This document shows positions 7,784 to 52,040 of a stretch of 64,000 bases of DNA, piece after piece. The position numbers and the translations under genes were made by a program. Under the pieces are notes generated by a model. The model saw nothing but the letters and a program-made list of their open reading frames with translations, did not search any database and had not been told where the DNA came from. This DNA is from Streptomyces halstedii (GTDB lineage Bacteria > Actinomycetota > Actinomycetes > Streptomycetales > Streptomycetaceae), in assembly GCA_000720535.1 (NCBI GenBank), contig JOAZ01000003.1, positions 248,001-312,000 of the forward strand. The letters run 5' to 3'. Positions within the stretch are counted from its first letter, which is position 1; each line of letters begins with the position of its first letter.

Positions 7784-8206
7784 TCAGCGTCCGGCCAGCC
7801 GCTCCATCAGCGCGGCGCCGCGGACCAGCGTCTCCCGCTCCTCGGCGGTGAGTTCGGCCTCGATGGCCTGGGCGAGCCAGCCCGCCCTGCGTCCGCGTTC
7901 GCCCTCCAGCGCGTCCCGGCCCGCGCCGGACAGCTCGACCAGGGACTTGCGGCCGTCCGTGGGGTGCGCCCGGCGGACGACCAGGCCCTGCTCCAGGAGG
8001 AGCCCGACCGCGCGGGCCATGGACTGGGGCCGCACGCGCTGATCGGCGGCCAGATCACTGGTGGTCATGGCTCCGTCCCGGTCCAGGGCACCCAGTACGG
8101 CGACCTGGCCGTGCGGGATGTGGTCCTCGTGCTTCACGCGCCTCGTGAGCTTCCCCATCGCGGTACGCAGTTCGGTGGCGACGGTGGCGGGTTCCGGGGT
8201 GGCCAT
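7784..8206 (-). CDS. MarR-family transcriptional regulator
   Basis: 140 aa from the ATG at 8206 (MATPEPATVATEL); an upstream in-frame extension lacks family similarity. Winged-helix core: HGQVAVLGALDRDG, recognition region LAADQRVRPQSMARAVGLLL, and the wing with the diagnostic TDGRKSLVEL motif. MarR proteins act as dimers and usually repress a divergent gene until a small ligand binds. Here the divergent gene is an enolase, and five evenly spaced CTGWACAG boxes fill the gap. MarR is the obvious candidate to bind them, though multiple phased boxes are not the usual single MarR palindrome. Confidence 0.85.
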   Translation of the reverse strand: MATPEPATVATELRTAMGKLTRRVKHEDHIPHGQVAVLGALDRDGAMTTSDLAADQRVRPQSMARAVGLLLEQGLVVRRAHPTDGRKSLVELSGAGRDALEGERGRRAGWLAQAIEAELTAEERETLVRGAALMERLAGR

Positions 8207-8298
8207 ACGGCACTTTAGCGCGCGTCGCCGAGGGCCCACGCGCCCCCATCCACCCAGCTGACCTGCACCGCTGCCCCGCACCGCCTCCGGCGGAGGTT

Positions 8299-8358
8299 CT
8301 GTACAGCCAAGCTGAACAGCCGAACTGAACAGTCAGACTGAACAGCATTGCTGTACAG
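8299..8358. promoter_or_regulatory. Five CTGWACAG iterons at exact 13-bp spacing
   Basis: CTGTACAG, CTGAACAG, CTGAACAG, CTGAACAG and CTGTACAG begin at 8299, 8312, 8325, 8338 and 8351. The period is exactly 13 bp. The outer copies are perfect palindromes; the inner three differ by one base. The spacer bases between boxes are not conserved, so selection on the boxes is likely. The array lies between marR (start 8206) and enolase (start 8431), ending 72 bases before the enolase ATG. Confidence 0.85.
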
Positions 8359-8430
8359 TTGGCCTCGCCGTGGCAGGCGCCGACGTCGTCGCAGCAGAGC
8401 CGCGGCACGCGTCAACGGGAAGGACATCCC

Positions 8431-9732
8431 ATGGCTTCCACAGCAGCCGAACCCACCGCCATCCGGTCCGTCACCGCCCGCCGGGTCCTCGACAGCCGGG
8501 GCAACCCCACCGTCGAGGCCGATGTCGTCCTCGCGGACGGCTCCCTCGGCCGCGCCGCCGTCCCGTCCGGCGCATCCACCGGCGCGCGGGAGGCCGTGGA
8601 GCTGCGCGACGGCGACCCCGGGGCCTGGCACGGCAAGGGCGTCGACCGGGCGATCGCCCATGTCAACGGCGAGATCGCGGCCGCGGTCGTGGGCCGCGAC
8701 GCCGACGACCAGGCGGGCCTGGACGCCGCGCTCATCGCGCTCGACGGCACGCCCGGCAAGTCCCGGCTCGGCGCCAACGCCGTCCTCGGCGTCTCCCTCG
8801 CCGCCGCCAAGGCCGCGGCGGCCGCGCGCCGCCTCCCGCTCTACCGCCACCTCGGCGGCGCCGACGCCCGCCTCCTGCCGCTGCCGATGATGAACATCGT
8901 CAACGGCGGCGCCCACGCCGACAATCCGCTGGACTTCCAGGAGTTCATGATCGCCCCCGTGGGCGCGGAGACCTTCGCGGAGGCGGTCCGCATGGGGTCC
9001 GAGATCTTCCACACCCTCCGCCGCGACCTGCTGGCCGCCGGGCACTCCACCGGCGTCGGCGACGAGGGCGGCTTCGCCCCCGCGCTGCGCACCGCCGAGG
9101 AGGCGCTCGACTTCGTCATGGCGGCGGTCGAACGCGCCGGATACCGCCCGGGTACGGACATCGGCCTGGTCATGGACCCGGCGTCCTCGGAGTTCTTCCG
9201 GGACGGTGTGTACGTGTACGCGGGCGAGGGGGTGCGCCGTACCTCCTCGGAGCACGCCGACCACCTGGCCGGGCTGATCGACGCGTACCCGATCGTGTCC
9301 GTCGAGGACCCGATGGCCGAGGACGACCTGGACGGCTGGCGGGAACTGACGGCCCGTGTCGGCGACCGCTGCCAGCTCACGGGCGACGACGTGTTCTGCA
9401 CCGACGAGAAGCTGCTCGCCGAGGGCATCCGCACCGGTGTCGGCAACTCGGTCCTGGTCAAGGTCAATCAGGTCGGCACCCTCACCGAGGCACTCGCCAC
9501 GGTCGCCACCGCGCACCGCGCGGGCTGGACCGCCGTCATGTCGCACCGGTCCGGTGAGACGGAGGACACCACGATCGCGGACCTGGCGGTGGCGACGGGC
9601 TGCGGGCAGATCAAGACCGGCTCACTGTCCCGCTCCGACCGCACCGCGAAGTACAACCAACTCATCCGGATCGAGGAGGAGTTGGGCGACACCGCGCGGT
9701 ACGCGGGCGGATCCGTGTTGCACCGGTCCTGA
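8431..9732 (+). CDS. eno: Enolase (phosphopyruvate hydratase), probable second copy
   Basis: 433 aa, full length for the family (about 425-435). The ATG at 8431 has GGGAAGGA upstream and gives the standard start before [16 protein letters not shown]-like sequence. Enolase landmarks are present: VPSGASTG loop, NGGAHADN, acid [10 protein letters not shown], metal ligands in VEDPMAEDD, catalytic Lys in LVKVNQVG, and [15 protein letters not shown]. It interconverts 2-phosphoglycerate and phosphoenolpyruvate in the cytoplasm. It is not in a glycolytic or ftsB-type neighbourhood, and has its own MarR and operator array. It may be an extra, conditionally expressed enolase like eno2 of S. coelicolor; that a housekeeping copy exists elsewhere is inference. 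Confidence 0.93.
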
Positions 9733-10401: not shown

Positions 10402-10440
10402 TCTCCGGTCACCGCGTCCGGCGGCGCGGCCTCACCGCCC

Positions 10441-10495
10441 GGCCGTCGCGAGAAGGCCAGGCCGTCGCGAGAAAGCCAGGCCGTCGCGAGAAGCC
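10441..10495. repeat. Three tandem 19-bp direct repeats
   Basis: GGCCGTCGCGAGAAGGCCA begins at 10441 and recurs with one change at 10460. It recurs again, truncated after 17 bases, at 10479. The array lies between the channel stop and the convergent amidase stop. Each unit contains TCGCGA; function unknown. Confidence 0.7.
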
Positions 10496-10523
10496 GGGGG
10501 CATGGCACAAAGGCCCGCGCCCG

Positions 10524-10620
10524 TCACACATCAGCGCTGTCACAGGTCCGCTCCCGTCACAGACCAGCGCTGTCACCGACCGGCGCTGTCACCGATCCGC
10601 GCCCTCACAGGCCGGGCGGG
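10524..10620. repeat. Six degenerate 16-17 bp repeats running into the amidase stop
   Basis: A unit resembling TCACAGACCAGCGCTG starts at 10524, 10540, 10557, 10573, 10589 and 10605. The last copy supplies the amidase stop codon (10605-10607). Copies differ by several bases, so this is an old or selected array rather than a fresh slippage product. Confidence 0.6.
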
Positions 10621-50257: not shown

Positions 50258-50305
50258 CATGCCCGTGTGGATCGTGACCGTCATGCCCGTGTGGATCGTG
50301 ACCGT
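50258..50305. repeat. Exact 24-bp tandem duplication in the hsaA leader
   Basis: The 24 bases starting CATGCCCGTGTGGATCGTGA at 50258 are repeated without change at 50282-50305. They lie immediately upstream of the hsaA ribosome-binding site. Confidence 0.9.
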
Positions 50306-51917: not shown

Positions 51918-52040
51918 CGGAACGGGGCTTCCTGGACGGGGACTTACTGCGACGGGGCTTACGGGGAGGGGGCTTGCTGCGACGGGGCACACGGGGACGG
52001 GACTTACGGCAAGCGGGCTTACGGGGACGGGGCTTCCCGG
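51918..52040. repeat. Degenerate ~15-bp repeats upstream of the fadD3-like gene
   Basis: Variants of ACGGGGCTTAC and ACGGGGCTTGCTGCG recur about eight times. On the minus strand the frame of the ligase runs open through them (Lys-Pro-Arg-Arg-Ser-Lys repeats). Either an untranslated leader or a variable basic N-terminal extension. Confidence 0.65.

Follow-up and report, generated by a model that had tools for sequence, protein, structure and literature searches.

What is a regular series of short palindromes doing in front of a second enolase gene? The window analyzed here, a stretch of 64,000 nucleotides of Streptomyces halstedii (contig JOAZ01000003.1 of assembly GCA_000720535.1, positions 248,001–312,000), carries five CTGWACAG boxes at 8299–8358 that are exactly 13 bp apart from start to start. 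They lie in the promoter region between the divergent genes marR, encoding a MarR-family regulator, and eno2, encoding an enolase. MarR proteins are usually described as binding with one dimer to one palindrome. On balance, and by a modest degree, we favor the reading that a two-dimer MarR operator has been expanded at this locus into an array of overlapping dimer sites, which would cooperatively silence eno2 and often marR as well.

Phased boxes between marR and eno2

Box 1 (8299–8306) and box 5 (8351–8358, at the eno2 end) both read CTGTACAG and are perfect palindromes. Boxes 2 (8312–8319), 3 (8325–8332), and 4 (8338–8345) read CTGAACAG, which is one change away from a palindrome. An earlier note on this DNA had described both the 13-bp spacing and this distribution of perfect and altered copies, and the sequence bears it out. 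Counted across the spacers, the array comprises four perfect sites and one imperfect site of the CAG-N5-CTG type. CTGWACAG occurs six times in the window, five of these belonging to the 13-bp run, and in 300 simulated windows of equal length (first-order Markov), not even two boxes at any one period of 8 to 40 bp ever occurred. Within the strain's own 7.74-Mb genome, CTGWACAGN5CTGWACAG is unique to marR–eno2, as is the looser CAGN5CTGNNCAGN5CTG, and 400 bases at the start of the housekeeping enolase gene, nearly all of them upstream, contain no CTGNNCAG. At 10.5 bp per turn, 13 bp corresponds to 1.24 turns or, by our arithmetic, about 86° per step, which agrees with the spiral that had been proposed from this phase at about 80° per site.

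Conservation of the array

The array was compared across 113 loci with a marR ortholog, comprising 33 loci from a Streptomyces sample (30 plus three more) and 80 named loci (the best 80 of 213 candidates), two sets that overlap. The loci represent six genera (Streptomyces, Actinacidiphila, Streptacidiphilus, Micromonospora, Promicromonospora, and Yinghuangia). Dropping 12 repeats left 101 distinct intergenic sequences, which are the regions counted below; these sequences are related, so locus counts are not independent. marR and eno2 are divergent immediate neighbors in all 113 loci, and among 121 Streptomyces genomes, orthologs of MarR (at least 72% identity) and eno2 (at least 85%) occur in exactly the same 33. 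The earlier note had pointed to relatives with the same marR–eno pair as the place where the array might prove to be absent; it is present in 101/101 distinct regions, the arrays upstream of the eno2 orthologs facing this MarR.

The 101 regions contain 396 CTGNNCAG boxes, compared with a shuffle mean of 15.6, and 248 box pairs exactly 13 bp apart, compared with a shuffle mean of 0.01 and a maximum of 1 (200 shuffles). One pair is spaced at 12 bp and none at 11 bp. Every region has at least two perfect in-phase CAG-N5-CTG sites, not always adjoining: two in 6 regions, three in 27, four in 25, five in 24, six in 12, seven in 5, and eight in 2. With imperfect sites included, the number ranges from 2 to 11 per region. 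Copy number is labile: a quick tree of the 101 regions, with the tolerant site count as its state, calls for at least 57 changes.

Box letters are kept at 86 to 100% in the three boxes preceding the last, while spacers and box centers drift. The centers read AA, CA, TA, AG, CG, or TG, and interior boxes are mostly CTGAACAG or CTGCACAG. The spacers had been called unconserved, which is incorrect: the one adjoining eno2 is CATTG in 66/101 regions, and the first base of each of the four eno2-nearest spacers is C in 87 to 91%. For the element corresponding to box 5, CTGTA can be placed in all 101 regions, a figure that follows by construction from the rule that anchored each array on this motif; the complete CTGTACAG is seen in just 7%. 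Relative to the marR side, the whole-unit register is partly kept (42/101 regions in one class modulo 13, shared ancestry not removed). The array is real and conserved, and we consider it very probably regulatory.

One marR–eno2 pair with an array (L171) is located on plasmid SNP1 of S. nigrescens, and the pair is also found in Micromonospora and Promicromonospora, a distribution that points to exchange across genera.

The array follows the MarR protein

Among the 121 Streptomyces genomes are five eno2 relatives (70–80% identity) without such a MarR, and none of the five has a CTGNNCAG within 700 bp upstream. MarR homologs of about 35 to 58% identity adjoin other genes, whose products have isochorismatase and FAD monooxygenase domains (two loci) or, by eye, are metallo-beta-lactamase-like (several loci). 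In 49 such homolog loci, we found the three-box pattern CAR-Nn-YTGNNCAR-Nn-YTG with at most 1 mismatch of 12 in 25, with n = 5 in 17 and n = 6 in 9; locus L076 is counted twice here, and its n = 6 instance is weak. Other values of n from 2 to 11 matched in 0 to 3 of the 49 loci, and shuffles gave 0.15 to 0.45 (40 per spacing).

Since a three-box operator is common in this MarR branch, the eno2 arrays look like its expansion. One of the smallest eno2 versions, in Micromonospora musae (L097), reads TCTACAG-N5-CTGAACAG-N5-CTGTAGA and resembles the three-box operator. Judged from these comparisons, the array tracks the MarR and not the enolase, and it is very likely the operator of the adjacent MarR. 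The claim that this is not a normal MarR arrangement is half right, since homologous MarRs often have a three-box version. Set against the proposed expansion, 24 of the 49 homolog loci lack a clear three-box operator with 13- or 14-bp spacing at up to one mismatch, and the control spacing n = 2 (period 10) also exceeds shuffles, with 3/49 loci at up to one mismatch and 16/49 versus 3.3 at up to two.

Two of the homolog loci, L184 and L190, have other palindromes by eye. The 14-bp (N6) version of the three-box pattern lies beside the MarR homologs of L081, L083, L088, L183, L186, L191, and L197, and that of L197 is a near-perfect 34-bp palindrome. In L067, one of the five eno2 relatives without such a MarR, the divergent neighbor is an HxlR regulator that carries a peroxiredoxin-like AhpC/TSA domain, and L064–L066 are similar by eye; one enolase would then have different regulators, possibly with a redox link.

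Register of the dimer sites

The array can be parsed in two ways. If a dimer site is centered on the 5-bp spacer and reads TACAG-N5-CTGTA, each box consists of two half-sites common to neighboring dimers. Alternatively, MarR dimers could be centered on the CTGnnCAG boxes, with one dimer per box and five in the window; the earlier note had likewise taken each CTGWACAG as the site of one protein, which is probably wrong. Sequence comparisons suggest that the spacer-centered register is the probable one and that the box-centered register is quite improbable. In the window, the former yields four putative dimer sites, namely TACAG-N5-CTGAA at 8302–8316, AACAG-N5-CTGAA at 8315–8329 and again at 8328–8342, and AACAG-CATTG-CTGTA, nearest to eno2, at 8341–8355.

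What speaks for one dimer per box is that the boxes are palindromes and that the 8-bp box stays constant while the period in the homologs shifts from 13 to 14 bp. The ends of the arrays point mostly the other way. They were assessed without the CTGTA anchoring in the 90 of 101 regions that have a run of at least two whole boxes (11 were dropped); for the downstream end, 89 remained, one region having no downstream sequence. The element just downstream of the run, which by construction is not a whole box, kept only its near half, CTG, in 72/89 regions, only its far half, CAG, in 11, and neither in 6, and this dominance of near halves at the eno2 end counts against dimers centered on boxes. The element just upstream kept only the near half in 39/90, only the far half in 27, and neither in 24, so that elements with the far half alone, as the box register would have it, are not rare on this side. 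Among boxes with CAG, the far CTG was kept in 301/339 when the CAG across the spacer was present and in 69/132 when it was absent, and the correlation between CAG and CTG was higher across the spacer than within the box at six of seven positions. Full outer halves are rare in the three-box operators of the homologs (9 of 52 ends in 26 matches), and the box center is not symmetric (23% complementary); both observations disfavor the box register. The spacer, by comparison, shows a slight excess of symmetry at ±1, in 112/332 cases versus 85 expected, a value reached in none of 1000 shuffles. Half-sites 5 bp apart would also misfit a pair of recognition helices placed in successive major grooves, the arrangement that the available passages of PMC3737563 describe for SCO3205.

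The geometry of a known operator fits the spacer register as well. In the parts of PMC6034001 at hand, the box of OhrR, a MarR-family protein of Bacillus and Agrobacterium, is given as TACAATTNAATTGTA, i.e. TACAA-N5-TTGTA, whose half-sites are almost identical to those of TACAG-N5-CTGTA and equally far apart, and whose promoter is often divergent; unlike the array, the box is described there as a single site. OhrR-type geometry (TACA-N7-TGTA-like spacing, with five bases between TACAR and YTGTA) is matched by the perfect in-phase CAG-N5-CTG sites, at least two per region, of 101/101 regions, a likeness of geometry only and not of membership, and the outer letters of interior half-sites are often not TA. 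OhrR senses peroxide through a cysteine, whereas the MarR of the window has no cysteine and hence lacks the reactive residue that characterizes OhrR.

Several observations weigh against the spacer register. Spacer symmetry beyond CTG/CAG is weak, and at ±2 it is not above shuffles. The homolog spacer of 5 or 6 with a constant 8-bp box is also what a box-centered dimer predicts. At the eno2 end, the half-box evidence is confounded by a putative -10 hexamer that constrains the same letters, and upstream the excess of near halves is small (39 to 27). Because most interior boxes read CTGAACAG or CTGCACAG, right half-sites are imperfect. The evidence for this register is good at the eno2 end and weaker upstream.

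Promoters and proposed switch

A putative eno2 -10 hexamer, TACAGT (8354–8359, plus strand), suggested by its conservation, begins inside box 5. The eno2-nearest element reads TANNNT in 99/101 regions, where the final T is informative and TA is given by the anchoring rule, and it lies a median of 71 nt from the aligned eno2 start. On the other side, a putative marR -10, TAAAGT on the minus strand (8212–8217), is located 5 nt before the marR ATG, which would make the mRNA possibly leaderless; it too is proposed from conservation, ANNNTA lying no more than 16 nt before marR in 100/101 regions, at the same position in 96. Since one end of the array falls on the putative eno2 -10, dimers bound there should shut off eno2. 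In 48/101 regions, the upstream edge of the array (mismatches counted) is no more than 24 nt from the marR start, and in those species bound dimers probably block marR too.

From these features, we infer the following switch. One MarR dimer would read TACAG-N5-CTGTA with its recognition helices about one helical turn apart, and dimer sites would be laid every 13 bp, the right half-site of one overlapping the left half-site of the next in a CTGnnCAG box. Dimers on neighboring sites, which have a box in common and follow one another at 13 bp, are likely to touch and therefore to bind cooperatively. In the window, four intact sites would occupy 8302–8355, the last extending into the putative eno2 -10. 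The dimers would bind cooperatively as a spiral, turning by about 86° per step, and would block RNA polymerase at eno2, and at marR too in about half of the species. A ligand would then free all dimers at once, which would make the switching of enolase 2 and its regulator steep.

The array had earlier been suggested to be a cooperative filament or a titration device. A cooperative assembly of several proteins is the best reading of the sequence, and titration is not needed because the genome has no second copy of the array and the one present covers the putative promoter of eno2. A more elaborate form, in which MarR dimers build a true helical filament, passed on from dimer to dimer at every shared box, whose occupancy spreads from nucleation at the eno2 -10 toward marR and in which the array length, often different between species, sets the steepness of the switch, is possible but doubtful. 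If true, it would be the first MarR filament as far as the searched literature shows, and the single promoter, with its 2 to 8 perfect sites, would form a series provided by nature.

By annotation and arrangement, SCO7639 and SCO7638 are the marR–eno2 pair of S. coelicolor. According to the portions of PMC9739823 consulted, both reach higher abundance in S. lividans under phosphate proficiency, and the paper suggests that SCO7639 activates sco7638, which does not sit well with silencing. Nor does the absence, by eye, of a -35-like (TTGACA-like) hexamer 16 to 18 bp upstream of the putative eno2 -10, which would suit activation. Autoregulation in the window itself is doubtful, with about 80 bp between box 1 and the putative marR -10. 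The same cooperative array could act positively, with dimers reaching up to the -10 and recruiting RNA polymerase where the promoter has no -35, a mode for which the MntR array described below offers a parallel. We regard activation as rather unlikely. The last half-site is inside the putative -10, where a bound dimer should block the polymerase; MarR regulators mostly repress, as stated in the discussion of PMC13002591; and the co-variation of SCO7639 and SCO7638 is equally explained by shared repression, being expected if one operator holds down both genes.

Binding by another regulator such as PhoP is very unlikely. Pho boxes are direct repeats with a GTTCA core and an 11-bp period. An inner box of the array reads CTGTTCAG on the minus strand, which includes GTTCA, and Pho boxes have been proposed in the sco7638 promoter (PMC7244524), although in the passages seen the authors of that proposal call the rise not significant. 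The array period is 13 bp and not 11, as the pair counts given above demonstrate, and the GTTCA core is not conserved across the orthologous regions because the box centers vary. Moreover, the boxes are absent where this MarR is absent and present beside other MarR homologs. Neutral tandem repetition, without any part in regulation, is a hardly credible account of the boxes: copy number is labile, as a neutral repeat would allow, but box letters persist while spacers and centers drift, and the register and the start on the putative -10 are kept in six genera.

Two further candidates were set aside. Plasmid replication iterons would call for an initiator gene, and none adjoins the array, the neighbors being marR and eno2 in 113/113 loci. 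An RNA role was rejected since neither mRNA should include the array, which precedes both the end of the putative eno2 -10 and, on the other strand, the putative start of marR.

With cooperative silencing by MarR as the favored reading, overlapping dimer sites seem to be in frequent use in one branch of MarR, and in one lineage their number has grown. Copy number varies while the putative promoters and the protein stay much alike, which makes these loci a ready-made series on operator number versus switch sharpness. The locus also gives a point of entry to the question of why a distant second enolase is retained by many actinomycetes, and it allows a different reading from the activation by SCO7639 suggested in the literature.

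Comparison with known systems

A marR–eno2 array or a 13-bp MarR array was not found described in the titles and abstract beginnings of the openly licensed papers that the literature searches listed. MntR belongs to the DtxR family. At mneP of B. subtilis, four MntR dimers bind cooperatively to low-affinity sites over 84 bp, according to the sections of PMC11275975 used here, and MntR activates from this array. It differs from the marR array in its family, in its four 18-bp sites over 84 bp with no 13-bp tiling, and in its activating role. Rv2887, a MarR-family protein of Mycobacterium tuberculosis, accommodates a pair of adjacent dimers on 30 bp, with 15 bp for each and the two on almost opposite sides of the DNA, which resembles the proposed array; unlike in the array, the dimers sit independently, with no repeats and with indirect readout of G+C-rich DNA (PMC5526998, in the part consulted). 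By analogy, Rv2887 and MntR indicate that dense packing of dimers happens. BldC of Streptomyces, a winged helix–turn–helix protein, binds cooperatively to repeats of varying number, but as MerR-like protomers head to tail on 9-bp repeats and not as symmetric dimers, as far as the available text of PMC5859096 describes. Membership of the marR product in the BldC/MerR family was considered and rejected; its Pfam matches are to MarR and winged-helix models only, with no match to a MerR-like helix–turn–helix.

Flanking genes

The marR gene (7784–8206, minus strand) encodes a protein of 140 amino acids that matches Pfam MarR_2 (PF12802; 6.7e-11, score 42.6 versus a cut-off of 27) and MarR (PF01047; 4.2e-08, score 33.4 versus a cut-off of 24.6). 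Its AlphaFold2 model has a MarR fold, with a mean predicted local distance difference test score of 83.9 and a predicted template modeling score of 0.67. The top Foldseek match of the model is Rv0880 (4yif), and most of the listed matches are MarR proteins with TM-scores of 0.5 to 0.7. The Rv0880 family (NF052438) is also the best NCBIfam match by E-value; the protein is not a member of it, since it scores 94.7 bits against a curated cut-off of 220. The literature passages seen mention no operator for Rv0880. The spreading centromere protein AspA (5k5q) appears in the list of MarR-family fold matches, as a lead only.

The eno2 gene (8431–9732, plus strand) encodes a 433-residue enolase with 59% identity to the housekeeping enolase of the same genome. 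It belongs to the TIGR01060 equivalog (4e-188, 625.4 bits with a cut-off of 300), and the main enolase motifs, including KTG, are retained in an alignment with 4yws, as judged by eye.

Other occurrences of the 13-bp pattern and other repeats

CTGWACAGN5CTGWACAG was found in 34/295 genomes, in 23 at marR–eno2 and in 11 elsewhere, and the 13-bp motif is therefore not exclusive to marR–eno2. The 23 consist of the window's own instance, 19 of 29 other fetched ones, and those of G015, G042, and G066, assigned by position; the 11 consist of 10 fetched loci and G031. A backward control pattern matched three genomes. Among the 10 fetched loci, L018 adjoins a MarR homolog with 40% identity, and no MarR was detected within 1.5 kb on each side of the other nine.

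At L008, L022, and L025, 13-bp repeats of boxes resembling the CTGTTCAG or CTGAACAG type occur, and neither a MarR nor an enolase was detected up to 1.5 kb away. L008 (G155:C89, ~111148–111259) has nine CTGNNCAG in a row, just after an apparent terminator hairpin. The window itself contains further repeats: at 10437–10610, just downstream of a small gene that by eye is ion-channel-like, there are tandem repeats of 19 bp (three copies) and 33 bp (two copies) and a 16-bp unit, and at 51922–52035 and 50258–50305 there are, respectively, a 15/30-bp tandem array, in which the 30-bp unit is present about 3.8 times, and a perfect duplication of 24 bp.
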